A stretch of 64,000 nucleotides of DNA from Actinocatenispora sera (GTDB lineage: Bacteria > Actinomycetota > Actinomycetes > Mycobacteriales > Micromonosporaceae). Location: NCBI RefSeq assembly GCF_018324685.1, contig NZ_AP023354.1:682001-746000 (forward strand), read 5' to 3'. The translations under genes were made by a program, and so were the position numbers. This document shows positions 21,055 to 41,015 of this stretch, in pieces (position 1 is the first letter of the stretch; each line of letters begins with the position of its first letter). Below the pieces are notes generated by a model. That model did no database searches. It was not told the origin of the DNA and saw nothing but the letters and a program-made list of their open reading frames with translations.

Positions 21055-21283
21055 GGAGCGCCCGCGGACAATCCGGGCGCGCAGGCCCGGCGCGGGGTGA
21101 ACCGCCGGTGCGAGACCCACCCCGCCGTACGGCGAGTCAGCGGCGCGGCACCGCTCGTACGGACTCTGTTCATTCACAGGGCCAGCGGCTATGTTGGCGA
21201 CAGCACACCGCCCTCGGCGCGGCTGTGCGGTCTTTCACTCGGATCGTCCGGCACGTACCTGCCGGTGAAAGGACGCCATCACC

Positions 21284-28140: not shown

Positions 28141-28779
28141 GTGGAGAGGGCGACCGAGACCGCGCAGACGCTCGACCGCGGGCTGCGCCTGCTCGCCCTC
28201 GTCGCCGAGCACCCCGGGGGTGTCTCGATCAGCGCCGCCGCGCAACACCTGTCCGTCGGCCGTACCGTCGTCTACCGGCTGGCCGCCACGCTCGCCGCCC
28301 ACGGGCTGCTGCACCACGACCCCGGCGGGCCGCTGCGGCTCGGCATCGGCGTACTGGCGCTCGCCCGGCGGGCCCAGCCGCTGCTCGCCGAGGCGGCGTC
28401 ACCGATCCTGCGGGCCCTCGCCGAGGACCTCGGTGCCACCGCGCACCTGACCGTCGAGGACGGCGGCGAGGCGCTCGCCCTGCTGGTCGTCGAGCCCTCC
28501 TGGACCGCGCTGCACGTCGCGTACCGGACCGGCTCCCGGCACCCGCTGTCCGCTGCCGCCGGTGGCCAGGCCATCCTCGCCGGGCGCCGCGGTGAGCGCG
28601 GCTGGACCAGTTCGGCCGGCGGATTCCAGTCCGGTGCCTACGGCGTCGCGGCCCCGGTCCTCGGCATCGACGGCCTCGAGGCCAGCGTCGGCGTCGTCGC
28701 CCTCGGCACCCTCGACGACACCACCACCGGTCCGCGCGTCCTCGCCGCCGCCACCGCTCTGTCCACCTCTATCCGCTGA
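28141..28779 (+). CDS. IclR-family transcriptional regulator
   Basis: A 212-residue regulator with an N-terminal winged helix (TLDRGLRLLALVAEHPGGVS, ISAAAQHLSVGRTVVYRLAA) and the IclR effector domain (HLTVEDGGEALALLVVEPSW, HPLSAAAGGQAILAG). GTG 28141 sits six bases after TAAGGT (28129-28134), a leaderless start. The last residues TSIR and the stop are written in sequence that duplicates the end of the repeat element beginning at 28788, so the native C-terminus may have been replaced. Target unknown; it is divergent from cysS. Confidence 0.9.
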   Translation: MERATETAQTLDRGLRLLALVAEHPGGVSISAAAQHLSVGRTVVYRLAATLAAHGLLHHDPGGPLRLGIGVLALARRAQPLLAEAASPILRALAEDLGATAHLTVEDGGEALALLVVEPSWTALHVAYRTGSRHPLSAAAGGQAILAGRRGERGWTSSAGGFQSGAYGVAAPVLGIDGLEASVGVVALGTLDDTTTGPRVLAAATALSTSIR

Positions 28780-28813
28780 GCTGAACCCCACCTCTATACG
28801 CTGAGGTGAACCC
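28763..28813 (+). repeat. Tandem copy of the repeat-element terminus at the 3' end of the IclR gene
   Basis: CCACCTCTATCCGCTGAGCT at 28763 and CCACCTCTATACGCTGAGGT at 28788 start two 26-base copies (two differences) in direct tandem. The first contains the IclR stop codon, the second is the end of element A. Confidence 0.8.
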
Positions 28814-29523
28814 GAAGCGCCGCCCGTCCGGCTCGCGTGCGCGCGATGTAAAGCCCGCCCCTGTTCGCGCCGGCGTGCGCTTCTGCTGGTGGTGTAAAGC
28901 CCACCTCTGTTTCCTCTTTCCACCCCTCGTGGGGGAACCGTGGGAGCGGGCTTCGCCCCTCCCCACACCCCTCCCCATCAAGGGGGCAGCCGCCCCCTTG
29001 ACAATCCCCCGTCGGGGAAGCAGTGATCGGGCAGGACGCCGCCTGGCCGTTTCGGAAGATCGGAGTGTCGGCACGGCCTACCCATCGACGCCGAGCCCGC
29101 CACGCCAAACCAAACCCCCACCCCGCCTGCGGGCCGCCAGGACACGAAGCGACGCGATGCGTTGCGAGGCGGGCGTTGGCGTGATGGACATGCCGGGCCG
29201 GTTCCCTGTTCTTCTTCGACGGGCACTGGGCGTCGAGGGGCATCGTCACCGGGCCTGGCAAGGGGATGGCCAAGGGGAATCCCCTTGGCGGGGAAGGAGC
29301 GCGAGGAGGGGGCGAAGCCCTCTCCTCGCATTCCCCCACGCGGGGTAAAGCGGCGAACAGAGGTGGCCTTTACACCCGCACGCCGAGCGCGCAGCGGCGA
29401 ACACGGGGCTCACTCCGCACGCCGAGCGCGCAGCACCGGACGGGGGTGGGCTTTACACCGCCAGCGCCGAGCGCACGCCAGCCGCGCAGTGGCGCTTCGG
29501 GTTGACCTCAGCGCATAGAGGTC
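28788..29523. repeat. 736-bp palindromic intergenic element, copy A
   Basis: It is bounded by terminal inverted repeats (CTGAGGTGAACCCGAAGCGCC-like at left; complement CTGAGGTCAACCCGAAGCGCC at right). Subterminal GTGTAAAGCCCACC-type motifs repeat two or three times per arm, then come GTGGGGGAA, GGGCTTCGCCCC and CAAGGGG hairpin blocks. A central ~200-base unique core includes CACGAAGCGACGCGATGCG. Copy B at 38308 is the same length and inverted. Frames across it are open on several strands but are repeat-driven, and no transposase is seen, so it is taken as non-coding. It fills the gap between the convergent IclR and fumC genes, and the fumC stop touches its right end. Confidence 0.85.
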
Positions 29524-30913
29524 ACGGATGCGTCATGGAGAGGACGTCGAGGATCTCGTCGAGCTGCGACTCGGTGAGTTTGCCCGAGGAGACGTGACCC
29601 CGCTCGATGACGACCTCGCGGATCGTCTTGCGCTCCTTCAGCGCCTGCTTGGCGATGGCCGCGCCCTCCTCGTACCCGAGGTACCGGTTGAGCGGCGTCA
29701 CGATCGACGGGGAGGACTCGGCGAACTCGGTGCAGCGTTCCACGTTCGCGGTGATGCCGGCGACGCAGCGGTCGGCGAGCAGCCGGGACACGTTCGCGAT
29801 CAGCCGGACGGACTCCAGCACGTTGACCGCGATGACCGGCAGCATCACGTTGAGCTCGAAGTCGCCGAGGGTGCCGCCGAACGCGACGGTCGCGTCGTTG
29901 CCGATGACCTGCGCGACGACCTGGCGTACCGCCTCGGGCAGCACCGGGTTCACCTTGCCCGGCATGATCGACGAGCCGGGCTGCAGGTCGGGCAGCGCGA
30001 TCTCGCCCAAGCCGGTACGCGGACCGGAGCCCATCCACCGCAGGTCGTTGACGATCTTGTACAGCCCGGCTGCGATGGTGCGCAGCTGGCCGGACGTCTC
30101 GACCAGCCCGTCCCGCGCGCCCTGCGCCTCGAAGTGGTCCCGCGCCTCGGTGAGCGGCAGGTTGGTCGCCGCGGCGACCTCCTCGATCACCTTCGCGGAG
30201 AAGCCGGCCGGCGTGTTGATCCCGGTACCCACGGCGGTACCGCCGAGGGGCAGTTCGGCCAGCCGCGGCAGCGAGGCCTGCAGCCGCTCCACCCCGTACC
30301 GGACCTGCGCCGCGTACCCGGCGAACTCCTGGCCGAGGGTGACCGGGGTGGCGTCCATCAGGTGGGTACGGCCGGACTTGACCACGGTGGCGAACTCGGC
30401 GGACTTCGCCGACAGCGCGTCGGCCAGGTGGGTCAGCGCCGGTACCAGGTCGTTGATGACCGCGGCGGTGGCGGCGACGTGGATGGAGGACGGGAACACG
30501 TCGTTGGACGACTGCGACGCGTTGACGTGGTCGTTCGGGTGGACCGGCTTGCCGAGGCGCTCGGTGGCGAGGGTGGCGAGCACCTCGTTGGTGTTCATGT
30601 TCGAGGAGGTACCGGAGCCGGTCTGGAACACGTCGATCGGGAACTGGTCGTCCCAGGCACCGTCGATGACCTCGACGGCGGCGGACCGGATCGCCTCGGC
30701 GACGTCCGTGTCGATCACGCCCAGCTCGGCGTTGACCTTGGCGGCCGCCGCCTTGATCTGGGCCAGCGCGGCGATGTGCGCGTGCTCCAGGGTGCGGCCG
30801 GAGATCGGGAAGTTCTCCACCGCGCGCTGGGTCTGCGCCCGCCACTTGGCCTTGGCCGGTACCCGGACCTCGCCCATCGTGTCGTGCTCGATCCGGAACT
30901 CTTCCTCGCTCAT
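29522..30913 (-). CDS. fumC: Class II fumarate hydratase
   Basis: Interconverts fumarate and malate in the TCA cycle; cytoplasmic homotetramer, 463 residues. The superfamily signature [11 protein letters not shown] is present, with [14 protein letters not shown] and [16 protein letters not shown] forming the active site. ATG 30913 is preferred over GTG 30919 because GGAG lies five bases upstream. Its TGA coincides with the right end of repeat element A. A GAGCGAAGCGAGCG tract lies just before the start. Confidence 0.96.
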
Positions 30914-30977
30914 CGCCACTCCGCTCGCTTCGCTCGCCGTGCTGTTCGGCTCGGTTACTGGTGTCGTCGCCCGACGC

Positions 30978-31439
30978 TCACTGCTCGTCCGGGTCGGTCA
31001 GGGGCTGGGGCCGGTTCTCCCACTTGGTGGACAGCGCGATCGTCGAGTGGGTACGGGCCACCCCGGGCACCCGGTTGAGCCGGCCGATCAGCGTCTCGAG
31101 CTGCCCGATCGTGCCGACCCGCACCTTGCACAGGAACGATTCCTGGCCGGCCAGGTAGTAGCAGGACTCCACCTCGGGCAGCTTGGCCAGCTCGGCGGCG
31201 ATGTCGTCCGCCTCGCTGCTGTCGGTCTGCACGATGCCGACGAGCGCGGTGACGCCGAGGCCGATGGTCTCCGGTTCGACGAGGGTGCGGTAGCCGAGGA
31301 TCACCCCGGTGGCCTCCAGCTTGGACACCCGGTCGTGCACCGCGGGTGGCGAGAGGCCTATCTGTCGACCGAGTTCCGCATACGACAGGCGGGCGTTGGT
31401 GCGCAGCAGGTCGAGGATCTGCCGGTCGGTCGAGTCCAC
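30978..31439 (-). CDS. Lrp/AsnC-family transcriptional regulator
   Basis: A 153-residue regulator: helix-turn-helix ([39 protein letters not shown]) followed by the RAM ligand domain ([20 protein letters not shown]). GTG 31439 stands six bases after TAAACT (31446-31451 on the complement), a leaderless start. It lies 65 bases upstream of fumC on the same strand and could be cotranscribed with it. Effector unknown, probably an amino acid. Confidence 0.93.
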
Positions 31440-31785
31440 CGCGACAGTTTAGGTCGGCGTCCTGGTCCGTTCTGTCGGGGCCGGGAGAGGCGGAACTTGC
31501 CGGGAAAGGGGTCGGCACTCGCCGCCGGTGACTGCGCTCAGTACACGCGAGCGGGCTCGATCGGCAGCGTTCGGCGGATCGGTGCGGTAACCCGATAGCG
31601 GATACCGACTGTTAAAAATCCCAACATCCGCCCTTGTGCACAGCTCCGAGTGACAATATTCCTACAGGCGGTTGAAGAAGTGTGCGTCGCCACAACACCC
31701 CATCGGGTGGCGTTCCGACCATTTCCGGGACGGCGGGGGACGTCGATGCTGTAATGGATTCAGGGAGTATGTACAAAGGGGGGTC
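31440..31785. other. Intergenic region upstream of bldC
   Basis: No gene is supported. The stretch is locally AT-richer (around 31600-31690, with TTAAAAATC and ACAATATTCC) and ends in AAAGGGGGG before the bldC GTG. It probably holds a long bldC 5' leader and promoter; none can be assigned exactly. Confidence 0.45.
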
Positions 31786-31998
31786 GTGGAGAGTTCCGAT
31801 CGGCTGCTCACACCGGGTGAGGTGGCCTCGTTGTTCCGAGTAGACCCGAAGACAGTGACCCGTTGGGCCGCAGCCGGGCGGATCGGCAGCATCCGTACGC
31901 CGGGCGGGCACCGCAGGTTCCGGGAGTCGGAGGTTCGCGCGCTGCTCAGCGGCGACGAAGCAGGGTTCGCAGAGGAGAGTCAGGCAACGTCGCACTGA
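31786..31998 (+). CDS. bldC: BldC-type developmental regulator
   Basis: A 70-residue MerR-like winged helix without an effector domain. The core LLTPGEVASLFRVDPKTVTR and GSIRTPGGHRRFRESEVRAL is nearly that of Streptomyces BldC, which controls the onset of development by cooperative binding to direct repeats. GTG 31786 follows AAAGGGGGG, and 70 residues matches the family size. Its presence supports a filamentous, differentiating actinomycete. Confidence 0.95.
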   Translation: MESSDRLLTPGEVASLFRVDPKTVTRWAAAGRIGSIRTPGGHRRFRESEVRALLSGDEAGFAEESQATSH

Positions 31999-32057
31999 CG
32001 CGGCCAAACCACAGAGACAGCGGTCCGGCGGCGCCGGCCAGACGCGGCACCGGGGTT

Positions 32058-32735
32058 CTACTCCGGGTCTGGCCGACTCGCCGGATCGTTGGTGTCCGCG
32101 GCCAGCCGGGCCTCGCCCAGCCGGCCGGACCAGCGCAGGTAGAGCGTGTGCGGGACGGCCAGCGCGTCCAGCACCCGGCCGGCCACGAAGTCGACCAGCT
32201 GCTGCACGTCGCGCGCGCCCGCGTAGAACGCCGGGCTCGCCGGCAGCACGGTCGCGCCCGCGTCGTGCAGCGCCAGCAGCTGTACCAGGTGGCTGCGTGG
32301 CACCGGCGTCTCCCGCGGTACCACGACCACCGGCCGATGTTCCTTCAGGTTGACGTCCGCCGCCCGCTGCAACAGGTCCTTCGACAGTCCGAGCGCGATG
32401 CCGGCGCAGGCGGCCGTGCTCGCCGGCACCACCACCATGCCACGGGCCGGGTACGAACCGGAGCTGGGTCCGGCGGCCAGGTCACCGGCCGGCCAGTACC
32501 GCAGGTCGGCACCGGCAGCAAGGTCACGGCCGAGGAAGCCGGCCAGGTCCTCGCGCCAGTGCCCGTCCCGGATCGGCCGGCCGGTCTCGTCCAGCACGGT
32601 CAGCCGGGCCGCCCGCGAGACGATCAGGTCGACCGGCGCCCCGGCGTCGAGCAGCGCGCCGACGACAGCCCGCGCGTACGGGGTGCCGGACGCGCCCGAC
32701 ATCCCGACGATCCACGGTCGACGCTGTTCCGCCAT
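32058..32735 (-). CDS. UbiX-family flavin prenyltransferase
   Basis: A 225-residue enzyme that attaches a dimethylallyl group to FMN to make prenylated FMN, the cofactor of UbiD decarboxylases. The N-terminal MSGASGTPYARAV, SRAARLTVLDE and PASTAACAGIALGLSKDLLQR are family motifs; RPVVVVPRETPV is the phosphate-binding stretch. It supports the UbiD enzyme at 34853 (MqnM/MqnL roles in the futalosine menaquinone pathway). ATG 32735 lies seven bases after CAGAGT (32743-32748 on the complement), so it probably has its own leaderless transcript. Confidence 0.93.
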   Translation of the reverse strand: MAEQRRPWIVGMSGASGTPYARAVVGALLDAGAPVDLIVSRAARLTVLDETGRPIRDGHWREDLAGFLGRDLAAGADLRYWPAGDLAAGPSSGSYPARGMVVVPASTAACAGIALGLSKDLLQRAADVNLKEHRPVVVVPRETPVPRSHLVQLLALHDAGATVLPASPAFYAGARDVQQLVDFVAGRVLDALAVPHTLYLRWSGRLGEARLAADTNDPASRPDPE

Positions 32736-32812
32736 GCACCCCACTCTGCCGCACCACCCGCCACACCGGGCCGGCCGCCCGGGCCGGGTGTGCCCGGCGT
32801 GACCCGCGCGCC

Positions 32813-33277
32813 TCAGCTCAGCGCGACCGGTACCCGGTGGTCGGGCGCACCGTCCTTGGCGAGCATCCAGTACCCGTCGGCGACCGCGCGGTAGAGCACC
32901 AGGCCGGCGGCCTCGCCGACGTCGGCGGTGGTCCAGGCCCGGCCGCCGTGGTCGAGCGAGCGGCGGCTGAACACGGCGAGCGCGTGGGCCAGCTCGGTAG
33001 CGGGCACCCGGGCGGCGGTCGCGGCGAGGTAGACGCCCTGCCCGGTGCCGATCGGCGCGGCCGAGTCGAACACGACCCCGCCGACGTCCGGCCTTGTCTC
33101 GATGTTGCGGGAGTGCGCCGCGGCCGGCGACGACACCCAGTAGAACGTGCGGTACCGGTCGTGCGCGAAATACACCGGGGTACTCCACGGCCGGCCGGTG
33201 CGGTCCGCGGTCGCGAGCACCAGGTAGCGCTGCGCGTCCACGATGTGCCGCGCCGTCCGAACCGGATCGTCACCCAT
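32813..33277 (-). CDS. Pyridoxamine 5'-phosphate oxidase-family protein
   Basis: A 154-residue split-barrel flavin/F420-type protein (YLVLATADRTGRPWSTPVYF, TFYWVSSPAAAHSRNIETRP). The family includes many F420- or FMN-dependent reductases and the substrate is unknown. ATG 33277 is chosen for the preceding AGGTGG and the conserved N-terminus; the frame is open to 33343. It sits between the small gene at 33395 and UbiX, inside a group otherwise devoted to menaquinone. Confidence 0.88.
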   Translation of the reverse strand: MGDDPVRTARHIVDAQRYLVLATADRTGRPWSTPVYFAHDRYRTFYWVSSPAAAHSRNIETRPDVGGVVFDSAAPIGTGQGVYLAATAARVPATELAHALAVFSRRSLDHGGRAWTTADVGEAAGLVLYRAVADGYWMLAKDGAPDHRVPVALS

Positions 33278-33344
33278 CCCGACCACCTGCCTCCCCACTG
33301 TCGATGATTGTCGGACGGCGAACTCGTCGCGGGGGCCGGACACG

Positions 33345-33381
33345 CCGCGGGCCGGTGCGCGACCTGCGCACCGGCCCGCGG
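33345..33381 (-). terminator. Perfect 16-bp terminator hairpin
   Basis: 33345-33360 pairs exactly with 33366-33381 around GACCT, 14 bases after the stop of the 61-residue gene on the minus strand. Confidence 0.8.
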
Positions 33382-33394
33382 TGGTAGGACCCGA

Positions 33395-33580
33395 TCAGGG
33401 CCCGATGAGGTACTCGTCGGTGTCGGTCCAGCCGTCCACCGGGCCGTCCCCGGTGACGCCGTCGACGACGACCTTGTCACCGGCTGCGTCGACGGTGCGT
33501 TCTTCGGTGTCGGCGCTGGGCCGACGTGGTGCCGGGGGCTTCGTTGCCGCATCCAGCTCTCGCCATTTCGATCTGGTCAC
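33395..33580 (-). CDS. Small hypothetical protein (61 aa)
   Basis: Not recognised. It starts at GTG 33580 with one of the strongest ribosome sites in the window (GGGGGAGGAGG, about seven bases away) and ends just before a perfect terminator, so expression is well supported. The product is hydrophilic: a basic N-terminus (MTRSKWRELDAATKPPAPRR) and an acidic C-terminus (DGWTDTDEYLIGP). No membrane segment or Cys. It lies downstream of the UbiA gene in the same direction. Confidence 0.6.
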   Translation of the reverse strand: MTRSKWRELDAATKPPAPRRPSADTEERTVDAAGDKVVVDGVTGDGPVDGWTDTDEYLIGP

Positions 33581-33848
33581 GCGCTACCTCCTCCCCCATC
33601 GCCGAGCGGCGGGGTCGGTCCGACACTCGGACAGAACCGGGGGCAGACATCCAGGATCGCGGAATGTGAATCTACCGTCCACCCTCCGTACAGTCGCAGC
33701 CGGTTGCCGCGGTTGTCACCTGGACCACATCCACCCTGTTCGATACCCACGACGGCGGGCTCCACTCAAGCCGGTGCCGGAGTCGCGCCGGTTGTCGCGG
33801 GATTTCCGATCGGTACGGATCGCCTGACGTACCGGTTGCGGCGACCGG

Positions 33849-34853
33849 TCAGGCGCCCAGGCCCTGCAGGAACACCAGGTCGGCGAGGGCGAAGGCGAAC
33901 AGCACGATGCTGACCACACCGTTCGCGGTGAAGAACGCCCGGGTCATCCGGGACAGGTCGGACGGCCGCACGATGGCGTGCTCGTACACCAGGATCAGGG
34001 CCGTGATGCCGAGCCCGACCCACCAGATCGGGCCGTATCCGGCAGCCAGGGCGAAGGCTACGAACAGCCCGAGGGTGACCACGTGCACCACCGCGGAGGC
34101 GCGCAACGCGTTCGCGACACCGAACCGGACCGGCACGCTGCGGACACCGATCCTGGCGTCCACGTCGACGTCCTGGCAGGCGTACATGCAGTCGAAGCCG
34201 CCGATCCAGGCGCCCACCGCGAGGCCGAGCAGCAGCGCGGTCCAGGACCAGTGGCCGGTGACACCCAGCCAGGCGCCGATCGGGCCGATCGCCTGCGCGA
34301 GGCCCAGGAACACCTGCGGGAAGTCGGTGAACCGCTTCGCGTACGAGTAGATGATCAGGAAGAACAGCGCGATCGGCGACAGCGCCAGGCACAGCCAGTT
34401 GAGCAGCCCGGCGCTGACGAAGAACACCAGCAGCGAGATGCCGAGCCCGAGGTACGCCTTGCGCAGCGACAGCGCGCCGGTGACCAGCTCGCGGTGCGCG
34501 GTACGGGGGTTCTGCGCGTCGATGTGCCGGTCGATGATGCGGTTCGCCGCCATCGCGACGGTACGGCCGGCGACCATCGCCACGGTGATCTCGACCAGCG
34601 TGAGCCACTGCACGTGCCCGCCGTGGATGCGCATCGCCGACAGCGCGGCGACGTAGGCGAACGGGAGCGCGAAGATCGAGTGCTCGATCATCACCAGCCG
34701 CAGGAACGCGCGGGCGCCGTGCCCGGGGCGTACCACCGAGTCGCTGACCGCGTCCGCGGTGCCGCTGCCGCCGGCCGTCGGGGTGGGCGAGCCGTCGGTG
34801 GCCGGGGTCGGTGCCCCGCCGGTGGCCGGGGTGGGCGAGCCGTCGGTGGACAT
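33849..34853 (-). CDS. mqnP: UbiA-family prenyltransferase, probable MqnP
   Basis: A membrane prenyltransferase of 334 residues with about eight helices. It probably prenylates 1,4-dihydroxy-6-naphthoate in the futalosine route to menaquinone. The two Asp-rich motifs are NRIIDRHIDAQNPRTA and DCMYACQDVDVD. ATG 34853 overlaps the UbiD stop (TGATG). The first ~30 residues are a tandem Gly-Ser-Pro-Thr repeat (GSPTPATGG/APTPATD) absent from most relatives. UbiD-UbiA-UbiX grouping matches Streptomyces SCO4490-SCO4492. Confidence 0.9.
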   Translation of the reverse strand: MSTDGSPTPATGGAPTPATDGSPTPTAGGSGTADAVSDSVVRPGHGARAFLRLVMIEHSIFALPFAYVAALSAMRIHGGHVQWLTLVEITVAMVAGRTVAMAANRIIDRHIDAQNPRTAHRELVTGALSLRKAYLGLGISLLVFFVSAGLLNWLCLALSPIALFFLIIYSYAKRFTDFPQVFLGLAQAIGPIGAWLGVTGHWSWTALLLGLAVGAWIGGFDCMYACQDVDVDARIGVRSVPVRFGVANALRASAVVHVVTLGLFVAFALAAGYGPIWWVGLGITALILVYEHAIVRPSDLSRMTRAFFTANGVVSIVLFAFALADLVFLQGLGA

Positions 34854-36322
34854 CAGCGGCCCGTCCCCAGGCCGTACTCGGCCCAGCGTTTGTCCACAGT
34901 GGACACGATCTCCGGTGACATGGTCATCATCTCCGGCCACTCGCGGGTGTACCCCTCGGTCGGCAGCTTGCGGGTCGCGTCGACGCCGAGCTTGCCGCCG
35001 AAGAACTGGTGGTACGAGGAGTGGTCGAGATGGTCGACCGGTCCCTCGGAGACCACGATGTCGTGCAGGTAGTCGACGTTGCCGAAGGCACGGAACGACA
35101 CCTCGCGCAGGTCGTGCACGTCGCAGTCGGCGTCCACCACGATGACCAGTTTGGTCAGCGACAGCAGGTGTGCACCCCAGACCGCGTGCATCACCTTCTG
35201 CGCCTGCTTGGGGAACCGCTTGTCGATCGACACGACCAGGCAGTTGTGGAACACCCCGGGCTCGGGCATGTTCATGTCCACGATGTCCGGGATGAGGATC
35301 TTGATCAGCGGCAGGAAGATCCGCTCGGTCGCCTTGCCCAGGCCGAAGTCCTCCTGCGGCGGCTTCGAGGTCACGATCGACTGGTACACCGGGTTCTTCG
35401 CCGTGGTCATGCACTCGACGTGCAGCACCGGGAACGGCTCGACCGGCGTGTAGAAGCCGGTGTGGTCGCCGAACGGCCCCTCCGGCGCCCGCTCCCCCGG
35501 CTCGATCCAGCCCTCCAGCACCACCTGGGCGTTCGCCGGTACCTGCAGCGGCACGGTCCTGCAGTCGACCATCTCGACGCGCTCGCCGCGCAGGAACCCG
35601 GCGAACAGGTACTCGTCGATCTCGGCCGGCAGCGGCGCCGACGCGGCGTACGACACGGCCGGGTCGCAGCCGAACGCGATCGCCACCGGCAACCGCTGAC
35701 CGAGCCGCTCCGCGACCGCGTGGTGCGCGGTCGAGTCCTTGTGGATCTGCCAGTGCATGCCGAGCGTGTTGCGGGAGTGCTGCTGCAACCGGTACAGGCC
35801 GAGGTTGCGCTTGCCGGTTTCGGGATGCTTGGTGTGGGTCAGTCCGAAGTTGTGGTAGATCCCCCCGTCGCCGGGCCACACCTGCAGGCCGGGCAGCCGG
35901 TCCAGGTCGACCTCGTCGCCGGTGTACACCACCTGCTGACACGGCGCACTCTTCACGTGCTTCGGCGGCACCGACTTCAGCTGGCCGAGCTTGCCCAGCG
36001 CGCCCCAGATGCCGCCGAGCCCGGTCGGCAGCTCCAGCTTGACCAGCTCGGCGATCCGGTCACCGATCTCGTCGACGTCGCGTACCCCCAGCGCCAGCGA
36101 GGTGCGGCGGCGGGTGCCGAACAGGTTCATCAGCACCGGCATGTCGCCCCGGGTCGGCCGCTCGAACAGCAGCGCCGGCCCGCCGGCCCGGACCACCCGC
36201 TGGGTGATCTCGCTGATCTCCAGCGTCGGATCGACCGGTACCGACACCCGCTTCAGCTCGCCGGCCTTCTCCAGCCGGCGCAGGAAATCGGGCAGATCCG
36301 CGTACGGGTAGCCGTGTGCCAT
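34853..36322 (-). CDS. UbiD-family decarboxylase, probable menaquinone biosynthesis MqnL
   Basis: A 489-residue prenylated-FMN-dependent decarboxylase. It begins with YADLPDFLRRLEKAGELKRV, carries the family metal/cofactor region GIYHNFGLTHTKHPETGKRN and the E-R-A-P-E-G-PFGDHTGFY active-site strand, and ends with the usual DKRWAEYGLG. Context with UbiA (overlapping stop/start) and UbiX supports a role in decarboxylating the futalosine-pathway naphthoate. ATG 36322 is fixed by the conserved N-terminus. Confidence 0.93.
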   Translation of the reverse strand: MAHGYPYADLPDFLRRLEKAGELKRVSVPVDPTLEISEITQRVVRAGGPALLFERPTRGDMPVLMNLFGTRRRTSLALGVRDVDEIGDRIAELVKLELPTGLGGIWGALGKLGQLKSVPPKHVKSAPCQQVVYTGDEVDLDRLPGLQVWPGDGGIYHNFGLTHTKHPETGKRNLGLYRLQQHSRNTLGMHWQIHKDSTAHHAVAERLGQRLPVAIAFGCDPAVSYAASAPLPAEIDEYLFAGFLRGERVEMVDCRTVPLQVPANAQVVLEGWIEPGERAPEGPFGDHTGFYTPVEPFPVLHVECMTTAKNPVYQSIVTSKPPQEDFGLGKATERIFLPLIKILIPDIVDMNMPEPGVFHNCLVVSIDKRFPKQAQKVMHAVWGAHLLSLTKLVIVVDADCDVHDLREVSFRAFGNVDYLHDIVVSEGPVDHLDHSSYHQFFGGKLGVDATRKLPTEGYTREWPEMMTMSPEIVSTVDKRWAEYGLGTGR

Positions 36323-36521
36323 GCCGACAGTCTGTCAAGCGCTTCCCGGCGCGCCGCCGCGACCTGACCAGATCGTGACCGCTGCCCCGCGGGCCCGCCC
36401 GTGCGGTACCGCTCGAAGCGTCCGCCCGGTTTTCCCGGTCTGGCACACTCACGACGTCCACAGAGGTCAGGGCCGTGAGGTGCGCCCGGCCGAGCCACCA
36501 CCCCGAGGTACGAGGCCGTTG

Positions 36522-37283
36522 ATGCTCGACGAACCACAGTCCCCTTCCGCGTCGCAGCCGAGCGGCGCCGCCGCACCGGCGGTGGACGCTGCCACCCGGG
36601 CCGAGGCGGAGGAGATCCGGCTGACCCGGGTGGAGGTGGAGTTCGCCGCGGCCGAGCGGCTCACGTTCTTCTCCGACGCGGTGATCGCGATCGCCATCAC
36701 CCTGCTCGCGCTGGAGCTTCCGGTGCCGCAGCGTGGCACCAGCGCCGAGGTGCTGAGCTGGATGTACGACCGCAAGATGGAGTACATCGCGTTCTTCATC
36801 AGCTTCGCGGTGATCGGCGCGCACTGGATGAGCCACCACGCGGTGTTCCGGTGGGTGCGCCAGCTCGGCGGGCGGGTACTGCGGTACAACATGCTCTGGC
36901 TCATGATCACCGTGCTGCTGCCGTACCTGACGAAGCTGCTCACCCAGAGCGAGGACGACGGCGCGTTCCTCGTCCGGTTCGGGCTGTACGCGCTGGCGCA
37001 GGCGGTGTCCGGTCTGCTGTTCGCGCTGATGGTGCGGGACATGTGGAAGTACGGGCTGTTCCGTCCCGGCGTTCCCACGAAGGCGATCGACGGTGCCCAG
37101 ATGCGGTCGCTGATGATGGCCGGGGTGTTCGCGATCTCCATCCCGATCGCGCTGCTCGGCCAGTGGTCGTTCCTGGTCTGGCTCGCGATACCGGTGCCGA
37201 TGCGACTGCTCGGCGACCGGCTGCGGCGCTGGCTCGGGACACACCGGCCGTCGTCACCGACACCGGAGACCACCGTTATGTAG
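36522..37283 (+). CDS. TMEM175-family (DUF1211) potassium-channel-like protein
   Basis: A 253-residue membrane protein with six helices. Helix 1 carries the family signature RLTFFSDAVIAIAITLLALE, the selectivity-filter region of bacterial TMEM175 channels, and HWMSHHAVFRWV follows. Prokaryotic members form tetrameric K+-permeable channels. An acidic ~45-residue cytoplasmic N-terminus precedes it. ATG 36522 is chosen because it precedes the conserved region with GAGG nearby; upstream frame to 36321 lacks a better start. Confidence 0.9.
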   Translation: MLDEPQSPSASQPSGAAAPAVDAATRAEAEEIRLTRVEVEFAAAERLTFFSDAVIAIAITLLALELPVPQRGTSAEVLSWMYDRKMEYIAFFISFAVIGAHWMSHHAVFRWVRQLGGRVLRYNMLWLMITVLLPYLTKLLTQSEDDGAFLVRFGLYALAQAVSGLLFALMVRDMWKYGLFRPGVPTKAIDGAQMRSLMMAGVFAISIPIALLGQWSFLVWLAIPVPMRLLGDRLRRWLGTHRPSSPTPETTVM

Positions 37284-37287
37284 TCAC

Positions 37288-38301
37288 GTGAATCCTCGGC
37301 GTTGCCGGAACGGTACCGGCATCCCCTCGCGCCTACCCGCCCGTTGGTCGGCACTGCTGCTGGTGCTCGGCGTGCCCGCGGTGGCGCCGCTACCGGCGAC
37401 CGCCGGCACCCCCCGGCCGGTCGCGGCCGTCGCCGCGGGCGACGAGCTGCCGGCCTGCCCACCAGGCGGACCCACCGCACCGCGCCGCCCGCCCACCGCA
37501 CCGCCCGGCGCCGGGGCCTGCCGCGCCGCCCCGACCCGCGTCGTCCCCGCCCGGCCGGTACCAGCGACGCGCGTCGCACCGGCCGGCACCGGTCCGTCGG
37601 GCGGGCGACGGGCACCGGCCGGCGGCGCTCCGTCGGGCGGGGGCGTCGGGCTCGCCGCGCGGCCGGGTGAAGATGCCGACGGGTACCGGCACCTCGGCGC
37701 GTACAGCGAGAACGACTACGCCGCCGTCGGCGCCACCCTGCAGGTCCGCGACACCGGGGTACGGCGGCGCAGCAACGACTTCGTCGCCGCCCGGGTGATG
37801 GCGCGCGCCGACGCGGCCGGCCGCACCCGGTGGCTCGAGGCGGGCTGGACCGAGGACGGCTGGCTCGACGACAACGCCCAGCACGTCTACACCTACGACA
37901 GCACCGGCGGCGACTGGGCCTACTACGACCAGTACCCGGTGCACGACGGCGACCGGATCTCGGTCGTCGTCGAGTCCGGGCCCGCCGCGAGCGGCGGCAC
38001 CACCTGGCGCGCCTACCTGTGGTGGGACAACCGCTGGAACCTGCTCGCCGCGCCGACCCTGCCGTTCGGGCCGCGGGCACAACTGGAGCAGTACGTCGAG
38101 GTGTACGTGGATCCGCGACGCGGCGGGCGGTACCCGGTGCCCGCGGTGGCCGTCACCGGCAGCATCGTGGCGGCCGATCCCCGCGGGGACGCCGTACCCT
38201 GGCGCGACCCCGCCATACCGACCGACACGTCCCCCGCCTACTCCGGGTACTGCGTCTCCTGGCGGGAGCGGTACGACTCCTGGGCGGCGGGGACCTGCTG
38301 A
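37288..38301 (+). CDS. Secreted protein of unknown function
   Basis: A 337-residue protein with a signal peptide (basic RRCRNGTGIPSRLPARW, hydrophobic ALLLVLGVPAVAPL, cleavage near ATAG) and a ~90-residue Pro/Ala linker. The C-terminal ~210-residue globular domain is rich in Trp/Tyr (AGWTEDGWLDDNAQHVYTYD, WRAYLWWDNRWNLL). The aromatic content suggests a lectin-like sandwich, but no family is recognised. GTG 37288 follows four bases after the previous stop; TATGTA (37277-37282) may make it leaderless. Repeat element B begins seven bases after its stop. Confidence 0.75.
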   Translation: MNPRRCRNGTGIPSRLPARWSALLLVLGVPAVAPLPATAGTPRPVAAVAAGDELPACPPGGPTAPRRPPTAPPGAGACRAAPTRVVPARPVPATRVAPAGTGPSGGRRAPAGGAPSGGGVGLAARPGEDADGYRHLGAYSENDYAAVGATLQVRDTGVRRRSNDFVAARVMARADAAGRTRWLEAGWTEDGWLDDNAQHVYTYDSTGGDWAYYDQYPVHDGDRISVVVESGPAASGGTTWRAYLWWDNRWNLLAAPTLPFGPRAQLEQYVEVYVDPRRGGRYPVPAVAVTGSIVAADPRGDAVPWRDPAIPTDTSPAYSGYCVSWRERYDSWAAGTC

Positions 38302-38307
38302 GTGGGG

Positions 38308-39043
38308 GACCTCTTTGCGCTGAGGTCAACCCGAAGCGCCGGTGCGCGGCTGGCGTGCGCTCGGCGCTGGCGGTGTAAAGCCCACCCTTGTCCGGCGCCG
38401 GTTGCAGCCGGCGGTGTGTACGCGTCTCTGGCCGGGGCCGTTGGGTGCTGGTGGTGTAAAGGCCACCTCTGTTCGCCGCTTTACCCCGCGTGGGGGAATG
38501 CGAGGAGAGGGCTTCGCCCCTCCTCGCGCTCCTTCCCCGCCAAGGGGATTCCCCTTGGCCATCCCCTTACCCATCCCGGTGACGATGCCCCTCGACGCCG
38601 AGCGTGCGTCGAAGAAGACCGGGGAACCGGCCGGGCCTTCCCATCACGGCAACGCCCGCCTCGCAACGCATCGCGTCGCGTCGCTTCGTGTCCTGGCGGC
38701 CCACAGGCGGGTGGGGTTGGCTTGGCGTGGCGGGCTTGGCGTTAATGGGTAGGCCGTACCGACATCCCGTAGTTCCGAAGCGGGCCAGGCGGGGTAAGGA
38801 TCTCGTCTCTGGTTTTCCGGTGGTGGATTGTCAAGGGGCGACTGCCCCCTTGACGGGGAGGGGTGTGGGGAGGGGCGAAGCCCGCTCCCCACGGTTCCCC
38901 CACGGGGGGTGAAAAGGGGAAACAGAGGTGGGCTTTACACCGCCAGCACCAGCGCGCCAGCGCCGACAGGGGGTGGGCTTTACATCGCGCGCACGCGAGC
39001 CGGGCACCGGCGCTACGGGTGTACCTCAGCGCATAGAGGTGCC
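38308..39043. repeat. 736-bp palindromic intergenic element, copy B (inverted relative to A)
   Basis: The left end GACCTCTTTGCGCTGAGGTC corresponds to the right end of copy A read on the other strand; its right end (complement GCACCTCTATGCGCTGAGGT) corresponds to the left end of A. Internal order matches A inverted: GTGTAAAGCCCACC motifs, GTGGGGGAATGCGAGGAG, CAAGGGGATTCCCCTTGG, the unique core and the mirror arm. The last codons and stop of murB lie inside its right end. It is again between convergent genes and judged non-coding. Confidence 0.85.
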
Positions 39044-40111
39044 CAGGGAGGTGTTGACGAGGACGGGTTCGGGGTGGAGGGAGACACCGAAGGTCTTGTG
39101 GACGCCGGCGGCGATCTCCCGGGCCAGGTCGAGCAGCTCGGCGGTGGTGCCGTGGTCGGCGTTGGTGAGGGCGAGCGTGTGCTTGGTGGAGATCCGTACC
39201 GGGCCGGGGCCGTACCCCTTGGTGAAGCCGGCGCGCTCGATCAGCCAGGCGGCGGGGACCTTGACCCGGTCGCCGGACTCGGGCCAGGACGGTACGGGCA
39301 CGTCGGCACCGAGCAGGTCGGCGCACCGGGCGGACAGCGCGGCGAACTCGTCGGCGGACAGGATCGGGTTGGTGAAGAACGAGCCGGCGCTGCGGGTGTC
39401 CGGGTCGGCCGGGTCGAGCACCATGCCCTTGCTCCGGCGCAGCTCCAGCACCGCGTCCCGGACGAGCGGCAGCGGTACCCGGTCGCCGACCTCGACGCCG
39501 AGGGCGCGGGCCAGCTGCTCGTACCGGATCGGTTCGGACTCGCCGCCCTCGTGCAGCACGAAGGCGACCGACAGCACCACCCACCGGTCGTTGCCCTTGA
39601 ACAGGCTGGTCCGGTAGCCGAACGCGCAGTCGTCGGCGCGCATCGCGGCGGTGCGCTGCTCGACCCGGTCGTACACGGTGACCTCGACGATGGTGTGCGA
39701 GACCTCCTGGCCGTACGCGCCGACGTTCTGGATGGGCGTTGCGCCGGCCGCGCCGGGAATGCCGGACAGGCACTCGATCCCGGACCATCCCTGGGCGACG
39801 GTGGCCTCGACCACCGCATCCCAGTCCATCCCGGCCGGTACGGTCACCGCGACCCGGCCGTCGCCGCCGCGGCCGAAACCGAGGCCGTCGCCGCCGGTGC
39901 GCAGCAGGACCACGGTCCCGGGGAACCCTTCGTCCGCGATGACCACGTTCGACCCGCCGCCGAGCAGCAACAGCGGCTCGCCGGTGGCGTCCCCGGCGCG
40001 TACCGCCGCGACGATCTCGTCGGAATTGGTGACCTCGACCACACGTTGCGCAGGGCCACCGAGGCCGAGCGTCGTGTAGCGACCCAGAAACTCTTGACTG
40101 ACGTCCTGCAC
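39026..40111 (-). CDS. murB: UDP-N-acetylenolpyruvoylglucosamine reductase MurB
   Basis: Reduces enolpyruvyl-UDP-GlcNAc to UDP-MurNAc in peptidoglycan synthesis; cytoplasmic FAD enzyme, 361 residues. Motifs include TLGLGGPAQRVVEV, LLLGGGSNVVIADEG, GIPGAAGATPIQNVGAYGQE and SAGSFFTNPI with the catalytic Ser. After HPEPVLV the usual short family ending is replaced by NTSLGTSMR-stop, whose TSMR codons are the end of repeat element B. GTG 40111 lies six bases after TAGGCT (40118-40123 on the complement), a leaderless start. Confidence 0.95.
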   Translation of the reverse strand: MQDVSQEFLGRYTTLGLGGPAQRVVEVTNSDEIVAAVRAGDATGEPLLLLGGGSNVVIADEGFPGTVVLLRTGGDGLGFGRGGDGRVAVTVPAGMDWDAVVEATVAQGWSGIECLSGIPGAAGATPIQNVGAYGQEVSHTIVEVTVYDRVEQRTAAMRADDCAFGYRTSLFKGNDRWVVLSVAFVLHEGGESEPIRYEQLARALGVEVGDRVPLPLVRDAVLELRRSKGMVLDPADPDTRSAGSFFTNPILSADEFAALSARCADLLGADVPVPSWPESGDRVKVPAAWLIERAGFTKGYGPGPVRISTKHTLALTNADHGTTAELLDLAREIAAGVHKTFGVSLHPEPVLVNTSLGTSMR

Positions 40112-40167
40112 CCGGTCAGCCTAAGCTCGAAGTATCCAGCCATCCGCGCGGATGGGGGTGCAGGACG

Positions 40168-40248
40168 ATGAGCGAGCATCAGCGAGCGAATCAGAGGTAC
40201 CGCGCATCGCGGCTCATCGGGCTTCCGACGAAGGAGGCAGGCCGATGA
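40168..40248 (+). CDS. Leader ORF (26 aa) overlapping the downstream start
   Basis: ATG 40168 opens MSEHQRANQRYRASRLIGLP, 26 codons, ending in TGA within an ATGA overlap with the gene at 40245. The first 26 bases match the leader at 1296 in 25 positions. GCTCATCGG at 40212-40220 is exactly complementary to 40242-40250, the start region of the next gene, with the AAGGAGG ribosome site in between. Ribosomes finishing the leader would therefore open a hairpin that otherwise hides that start. Peptide function unlikely. Confidence 0.5.
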   Translation: MSEHQRANQRYRASRLIGLPTKEAGR

Positions 40249-41015
40249 GCAGGATTCCGGTGCGGCCGGGAAAGGATTTCTGGCTGGCCGCGCTGCGCCA
40301 CGACGGTGTGCTGCTCGGCGAGTCGGCGGTCGGGGACGCCCTCGAACTGCCGGTACCCGGCCACGTCGACCGGACCGTGGGCGATCTGCTCGGCACGCTC
40401 GGCGCCGAGTACCGGTGGGTTCGCGCACACGTGACCCGCGGCGAGACGAGCCGACCCACCCTCCCGCTGCCCGAGCCGCCGCACGGTCTGGCGCTGCTCG
40501 ACTTCTGGCTCGACGCGTACCGCGACCTGCTCGCCACGTTCGACGAACTCGACCCCGACCTGCCGGCGTGGAACTGGGCGCCGCAGCCGAAGCAGGCCCG
40601 GTTCTGGATGCGCCGCACCGCGCACCTGACCGCGCTGGACCGGTGGGACGTGCAGCTCGCCACCGGCGCACCCGTACCGCTGGAGGCGAAGGCCGCCACC
40701 GACGGCGTGACCGAGCTGTTCGACACGATCCTGCCGGCGCGCCGCATCGGCCGGCACGACCCGACCGGTACCGTCCGGCTGCTCGCCACCGACACCGGCG
40801 CCGAGTGGCTGGTCCGCCTGCGCGAGGAGGGCATGGCGCTGCTGGACAACAGCGGCCACACCACCCCGGCGGTGCGCGCCGTGGCCGCCGGTACCGCGAG
40901 CGACCTGCTGCTCGCGCTCACCAGCCGGATCTCGTTCGAGCTGGTCGGTACCGCCGGCGAGGCGCGGCTGCTCGACCAGCTGCGGCCGGACCGCCGTCCC
41001 ACGCTCGACCCGTGA
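40245..41015 (+). CDS. Maleylpyruvate-isomerase-like (TIGR03083/DinB-fold) protein lacking metal ligands
   Basis: A 256-residue protein of the mycothiol-dependent maleylpyruvate isomerase superfamily (N-terminal DinB-like four-helix bundle plus C-terminal domain; PGKDFWLAALRHDG, LPAWNWAPQPKQARFWMRRT). Compared with its tandem paralogue at 41140, the three positions that bind zinc are changed: FRHTG is LGTLG, and the E-x3-H of HELAVHRWD is L-x3-D in HLTALDRWD. It probably is not a metal-dependent transferase. Start ATG 40245 follows AAGGAGG and overlaps the leader stop. Confidence 0.85.
   Translation: MSRIPVRPGKDFWLAALRHDGVLLGESAVGDALELPVPGHVDRTVGDLLGTLGAEYRWVRAHVTRGETSRPTLPLPEPPHGLALLDFWLDAYRDLLATFDELDPDLPAWNWAPQPKQARFWMRRTAHLTALDRWDVQLATGAPVPLEAKAATDGVTELFDTILPARRIGRHDPTGTVRLLATDTGAEWLVRLREEGMALLDNSGHTTPAVRAVAAGTASDLLLALTSRISFELVGTAGEARLLDQLRPDRRPTLDP

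Follow-up and report, generated by a model that had tools for sequence, protein, structure and literature searches.

Large palindromic elements at gene 3′ ends form a REP/BIME-like family in Actinocatenispora

How does a chromosome come to hold two nearly alike palindromes, lying in opposite orientation and each sitting directly behind the stop codons of its neighbouring genes? The question is raised by two 730-base elements, here E1 and E2, of Actinocatenispora sera, which lie in a stretch of 64,000 nucleotides (contig NZ_AP023354.1, positions 682,001 to 746,000 of the forward strand; hereafter the window). They had been picked out from the sequence as an unnamed family that might be MITE-like (miniature inverted-repeat transposable element), REP-type (repetitive extragenic palindrome) or a structured bidirectional terminator. 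E1 and E2 belong to a family of symmetrical elements at the 3′ ends of genes, with conserved pairing and without a coding frame. We think it somewhat probable that this is a non-coding family of large 3′-end palindromes resembling REPs and bacterial interspersed mosaic elements (BIMEs), here found only in Actinocatenispora, in which ancestral insertions have been conserved under gene conversion and selection on hairpins, with a role at gene 3′ ends.

The two elements are 85% identical along their length and mutually inverted, as originally described, and their bounds lie one to three bases inside those first given when set by the end motif ACCTCTNTGCGCTGAGGT, which is common to many copies and stands at both ends in inverted order (Table 1). 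Their inverted-repeat alignment has arms of 174, 91, 87, 78, 68 and 68 nt (81–100% complementarity). The terminal inverted repeats of E1 (28790–28821 vs. 29491–29522) match at 94%, and both elements carry the expected subterminal GTGTAAAG(C/G)CCACC repeats and mirrored hairpin blocks. Three details of the ends go beyond the original description: a degenerate copy of the end motif just outside E1, the murB stop codon inside E2 and the fumC stop codon overlapping the last base of E1. In A. comari NUM-2625 the IclR gene terminates within the element's own end motif.

The pair is part of a repeat family with sharp boundaries, 33 units at 19 loci in A. sera, and not an isolated couple. We analysed the A. 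sera genome (G000, a single 7.04 Mb contig) together with those of A. comari NUM-2625 (G001) and the two other Actinocatenispora genomes (G002 and G003). From the outside inwards, a full element consists of the end motif, an arm with unit-head repeats, unit A, a core, the inverted unit B, a second arm and a second end. Units A and B are homologous and 114–121 bases long (about 118), each having a GGTGTAAAG(C/G)CCACC-like head (also given as GGTGTAAAGGCCACC) and three hairpins; the 15-base head recurs in the arms, where its repeats are spaced 44–50 bases apart and are clearest in G001 and G003. Full length varied from 599 to 818 bases among the nine A. sera copies with both ends recognised. The 33 A. 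sera units came from a covariance model of the unit, which also found 24 in G003 and 46 in A. comari, the last count being inflated by overlapping contigs (part of the A. comari copies were fetched). The 19 A. sera loci comprise 14 pairs, with 229–270 bases between paired units, and five single units, while G003 has seven pairs and ten single units; heads point outward in all pairs (14/14 and 7/7).

Matches to model R1 were confined to the four Actinocatenispora genomes among 150 sampled from the bacterial family, and those to model R2 to the same four among 300 (a single genus out of 44), both under stricter filters with which weak matches can be lost. The E1 sequence, searched against 61 genomes, matched three of the four; two further genera contributed one marginal match of 72 bases (E 4e-4) and one of 45 bases (E 7e-4). 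No gene was found to be carried by the elements, in agreement with the original statement that they hold no transposase or convincing coding frame: a coding element was rejected on long stop-to-stop frames that vary from copy to copy among 14 A. sera elements, and none of seven open reading frame (ORF) translations had a Pfam match above the cut-off (best DUF7577, E 0.049, 13.7 bits vs. a cut-off of 28). No Rfam family matched within the elements. An origin from plasmids or phages was likewise discarded, as neither the 72,556 plasmid records nor the 50,697 phage records searched contained a match to E1.

The folded strand of E1 reaches −478.8 kcal/mol (z −13.2) and that of E2 −471.2 kcal/mol (z −16.3), each compared with 20 dinucleotide shuffles, and chance is excluded as the source of their structure because these folds are far more stable than the shuffles. 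Conservation of the hairpins was assessed in two alignments, A1 (35 units hand-picked out of 78 full-length units) and A2 (24 units from four species, i.e. 14 of full-length type and ten G002 units found with R1). In A1, 96.8% of the cells in the three proposed hairpins are paired. Changes on both sides of a stem occupy 50 cells at four pairs in A1, compared with 18.2 ± 6.0 in shuffles (0/500 as high) and no more than 24 cells when the partner is slid. In A2 they occupy 37 cells at six of 14 pairs, compared with 16.7 ± 2.5 in shuffles and no more than 8 cells on sliding. RNAalifold returned the second and third hairpins much as proposed, with five two-sided pairs, but replaced the small first hairpin by an outer helix. 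Three species share the same consensus over some 50 consecutive bases of unit B, and C-rich sequence follows hairpins H2 and H3.

The original placement between convergent genes is correct for E1 and E2 but does not extend to the family: the 17 fetched A. sera loci comprise eight convergent, nine tandem and no divergent places (gene calls from a simple codon scorer, the genes flanking E1 and E2 being those checked with Pfam). Across the window, a similar gene caller counts 10 neighbouring gene pairs as convergent, 32 as tandem and 9 as divergent. On this baseline the binomial P is 0.037 for finding no divergent place and 0.010 for the excess of convergent ones (0.013 and 0.040, respectively, if close tandem pairs are disregarded). 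Sixteen further loci gave 10 convergent, six tandem and no divergent places, a set with some overlap, as two rows are A. sera orthologues of other rows and one is the orthologue of L074; calls also disagree between L143 (tandem) and its orthologue L086 (convergent). Twenty-two ends were recognised in the 17 fetched loci, of which 17 face a gene 3′ end, each within 15 bases, on either side, of its stop codon. At murB, L074 and L076 the stop codon is inside the end motif and in the same frame (TSxR-stop).

An element occupies the orthologous place in A. comari, G003 or both at 15 of the 17 A. sera loci, and the core has the same orientation in 22 of 23 cross-species comparisons (weakly backed by BLAST score for L108 and L114, the latter also backed by unit order). 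The idea of an invertible core was dropped, the sole apparent flip being that of A. comari at murB, where the contig ends inside the element. Nor did the suggestion that the pair might invert the fumC–murB segment find support, gene order being kept in G002 and G003, the two relatives where it is readable; in A. comari the segment was absent from the scored matches and the elements interrupt the contigs. Junctions are base-identical with those of A. comari at several places (e.g. L062 left, L067 right and L073 left); elsewhere junctions are displaced, by anything from a few bases to about 15.

Sequence identity follows species and not place. Among 36 elements from 54 loci (14 from A. sera, 14 from A. 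comari and eight from G003, with single units and fragments left out), mean identity within the three species was 0.908, 0.889 and 0.860. Orthologous copies of A. sera and A. comari averaged 0.807 (11 pairs), against 0.811 for cross-species pairs generally; two of these pairs are doubtful (L084, at a contig end, and L087, whose contig and a second one seem to have their first 50 kb in common), and the remaining nine averaged 0.808. The corresponding values between A. sera and G003 were 0.754 (seven pairs) and 0.759, and the tree likewise clusters copies by species, apart from the G003 copy L100. With L087 and L100 left out, 1238/1711, 957/1540 and 566/1081 pairs of sites per species carry all four combinations, and neighbouring sites are incompatible less often than when site order is permuted (P 0.001, 0.001 and 0.005), as expected if short tracts pass between copies. 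This pattern of places kept across species and sequence homogenised within each suggests concerted evolution, for which ancestral insertion plus gene conversion would be the simplest account. Limited literature searches yielded no description of concerted evolution at shared places for 3′-end repeats, nothing that pairs BIMEs with concerted evolution, nothing relevant on gene conversion among REPs, and nothing on palindromes between convergent genes, or REPs, in actinobacteria; among the Actinocatenispora genome papers listed, titles and abstract openings contained nothing on such repeats.

In G002, the fourth species, DNA searches with the elements found no match, and none of the 17 places matching A. 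sera loci holds a unit (best unit score 39, vs. 47 in shuffled sequence), both flanks being matched at 11 of these and a single flank at the other six. R1 gave ten weak matches there (35–49 bits) and R2 gave 13. The ten R1 matches are a related family of G002's own, mutually 78–95% alike among the matches listed, in which the order of hairpins is kept and stem sequences differ from the units of the other species; no inverted partner unit was present at the two copies examined, and one copy folds better than shuffles less strongly than E1 and E2 (z −3.9). Gene context was examined for these ten (R2 having given 13), with nine convergent places and one tandem (P 3.5e-6, or 3.0e-5 without close tandem pairs). 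The A. sera place corresponding to one G002 copy is empty.

On the explanation that we favour, copies would have been inserted in a common ancestor of A. sera, A. comari and G003, gene conversion between copies would keep them alike and selection on the hairpins would maintain them. A transcript arriving from either gene would meet very stable G+C-rich hairpins within a few bases past the stop codon, and this hairpin block could end transcription without a U-tract, guard the 3′ end against exonucleases, or both. By its symmetry a single element could serve both flanking genes, and its end may also provide a stop codon. Judged from sequence, bidirectional termination or 3′-end protection may thus be what the elements do. 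Excerpts of published work offer parallels: in Streptomyces clavuligerus 353 of 535 structured transcript ends have few uridines and bidirectional ends occur too (PMC8269248), and hairpin clusters between operons have been put forward as terminators (PMC8355165).

Several observations weigh against this explanation. The number of pairs with two-sided changes was reached by 67/500 shuffles in A1 and 36/500 in A2, and pair types did not exceed shuffles in either alignment; the two-sided changes are few independent events spread over many rows. A scan of 28600–39300 for T-tailed hairpins gave five sites, no clear excess over shuffles (2.6 ± 1.8), of which three, weak matches, fall inside E1 or E2. 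In 9 of the 17 loci a single neighbour ends at the element, and the closest 3′ end at L061, L071 and L075 is 50, 409 and 80 bases away. The seven A. sera places that match extra copies of A. comari or G003 hold a unit (two), a 45-base remnant (one) or nothing (four), and the element must therefore be dispensable at some genes. Lastly, the G003 copy L100 falls among A. comari copies in the tree.

The family could instead be a non-autonomous MITE-like transposon, moved by an unseen transposase with a preference for gene 3′ ends, so that the hairpins would be recognition structures and the post-stop place a target preference. The sharp inverted ends would suit such an element, as would the vacant G002 places with both flanks matched at 11 of 17, the location of G002's related copies elsewhere (with one such place empty in A. 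sera) and the places not common to all three sister species. Yet no target-site duplication was seen in the nine copies with both ends recognised (zero to two flanking bases in common), A. sera has no visible larger copy with the same ends that might be an autonomous partner, and Y1 transposase genes number one each in A. sera and A. comari and none in G002 and G003, despite the 24 units of the latter. The shared places with agreeing orientation therefore leave little sign of recent movement, and we consider a transposon unlikely. The Y1 transposase (PF01797) itself was rejected as driver, being unlinked: some 35 kb separate the A. sera gene from the element closest to it. Insertion might also have struck the same hot spots independently, and repeatedly, in each species; this would produce species clustering without gene conversion, and would agree with that clustering and with the small junction differences at some places; agreement of orientation in nearly all comparisons, the base-identical junctions and the recombination signal between copies make it highly improbable.

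Action at the level of DNA is a further, quite doubtful explanation: the units would bind a protein such as gyrase or a nucleoid protein and either relax supercoils that accumulate where convergent genes meet or structure the chromosome's origin half. It draws on the over-representation of convergent places, the repetition of the unit head in the arms and the gyrase binding reported for BIME-2 in part of PMC2817692. Fourteen of the 19 A. sera loci also lie within 1.2 Mb of dnaA (6.5 expected, P 5e-4), and the G003 figure of 14/17 is not independent of this one; the bias may only reflect where conserved genes are located. About half of the A. sera loci are tandem, and the two-sided stem changes favour a single-stranded form, although a DNA cruciform may also account for them. 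A more speculative reading, to which we give little credence, is that the units are read by a trans-acting factor in species 'dialects', a chromosome-wide set of 3′-end sites changing jointly by gene conversion while places and orientation are inherited; given the preference for the origin half, the set might serve to organise the chromosome or manage supercoiling no less than to end transcripts.

Palindromes scattered through bacterial genomes are usually treated as relics of mobile elements, and concerted evolution within species is familiar from rRNA operons. The Actinocatenispora elements occupy many of the same places in different species, show two-sided stem changes and evolve in concert within each species. 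They also make selection on such repeats testable, since 14 near-alike pairs in one genus, set against a relative without them at the same genes, amount to a natural experiment.

Some practical consequences were apparent in the short-read assembly of A. comari, which the elements disturb and seem to fork or break: contigs C1 and C124 (L078 and L087) carry elements at the same coordinates followed by different genes, and contig C90 (L084) ends within an element. The position of L100 (G003 925000–928500, at the place of A. sera locus L077) among A. comari copies suggests a possible interspecies transfer.

Table 1. Features of elements E1 and E2 and their flanking genes, in window coordinates.
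Feature	Position	Strand	Remarks
Element E1, full (A-core-B)	28790..29522	+	between IclR-family gene and fumC
E1 left end motif	28790..28807	+	
E1 right end motif	29505..29522	-	last base falls in fumC stop codon
E1 extra degenerate end-motif copy	28765..28782	+	2 mismatches; forms last codons and stop of IclR gene
E1 unit A	28891..29009	+	GGTGTAAAG head and three hairpins; G000 710891-711009
E1 unit A hairpin H2	28940..28966	+	
E1 unit A hairpin H3	28978..29001	+	
E1 core separating the units	29010..29261	+	
E1 unit B, inverted	29262..29376	-	G000 711262-711376
E1 unit B hairpin H2	29301..29329	-	
E1 unit B hairpin H3	29270..29288	-	
Element E2, full	38309..39040	-	orientation opposite to E1; between ORF without Pfam match and murB
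E2 end motif, side of ORF without Pfam match	38309..38326	+	
E2 unit B	38453..38566	+	G000 720453-720566
E2 unit A	38823..38941	-	G000 720823-720941
E2 end motif, murB side	39023..39040	-	contains murB stop codon 39026-39028
IclR-family regulator gene	28141..28779	+	flanking; Pfam-checked
fumC	29522..30919	-	flanking; Pfam-checked
ORF without Pfam match	37288..38301	+	flanking
murB	39026..40111	-	flanking; Pfam-checked

Three other features of the window were recorded. A second dispersed repeat of about 85–90 bases (40162–40251) recurs in A. comari, G002 and G003 at 72–90% identity, with three G002 copies in tandem, 72–77 bases apart; it ends in GGAGGCAGGCCGATGAGC, which resembles a ribosome-binding site plus start codon, and may therefore be a portable 5′ leader. 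An msiK RNA (Rfam RF01747, 55.4 bits) lies at 21222–21280, directly after a tRNA-Thr gene. Three copies of a tandem repeat with a 24-base period occupy 34768–34849, within the start of a predicted minus-strand gene (33849–34853).

Among known systems, the bidirectional and U-less (I-shaped) terminators of G+C-rich bacteria, as described in excerpts of PMC8269248 and PMC8355165, likewise place strong hairpins right after stop codons and are usable from two sides, and the Actinocatenispora elements have the intrinsic-terminator feature of a G+C-rich hairpin after the stop codon; those terminators are individual sequences, whereas here a multicopy family of fixed architecture is found. The YPAL and ERIC repeats of enterobacteria are, in the part of PMC2267715 describing them, dispersed intergenic repeats of 100–170 bases with a conserved fold; compared by description, the Actinocatenispora elements are several times longer and set two units around a core. 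With MITEs they share inverted ends, the lack of a gene, dispersed copies and empty sites in a relative, but they are not MITEs in the strict sense, because target-site duplications are lacking in the nine copies with both ends recognised, and no autonomous partner was found in A. sera. Of the classes originally proposed, the REP-type and structured bidirectional 3′-end readings fit best, and a strict MITE does not. The likeness to REP/BIME repeats, as excerpted from PMC3733652 and PMC2817692, extends to oppositely oriented, related palindromic units in head-to-head pairs, to places between convergent and tandem genes less than 20 bp from 3′ ends, to ends that supply stop codons and to stems kept by complementary changes. 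REP units measure 20–40 bp and bear a GTAG or CGTC tag. The Actinocatenispora units, by contrast, are about 118 bases long, comprise three hairpins and are set in elements of 599–818 bases, and their alignments have no such tag at the hairpin foot. Because neither the size of the units nor the tag fits, and a linked REP-associated (RAYT, Y1) transposase was not found, the elements are not members of REP/BIME; their family also has fewer copies, and species-specific homogenised versions at shared places. In the way they work the Actinocatenispora elements are nonetheless most like REP/BIME, and their most unusual trait is concerted evolution at shared places.

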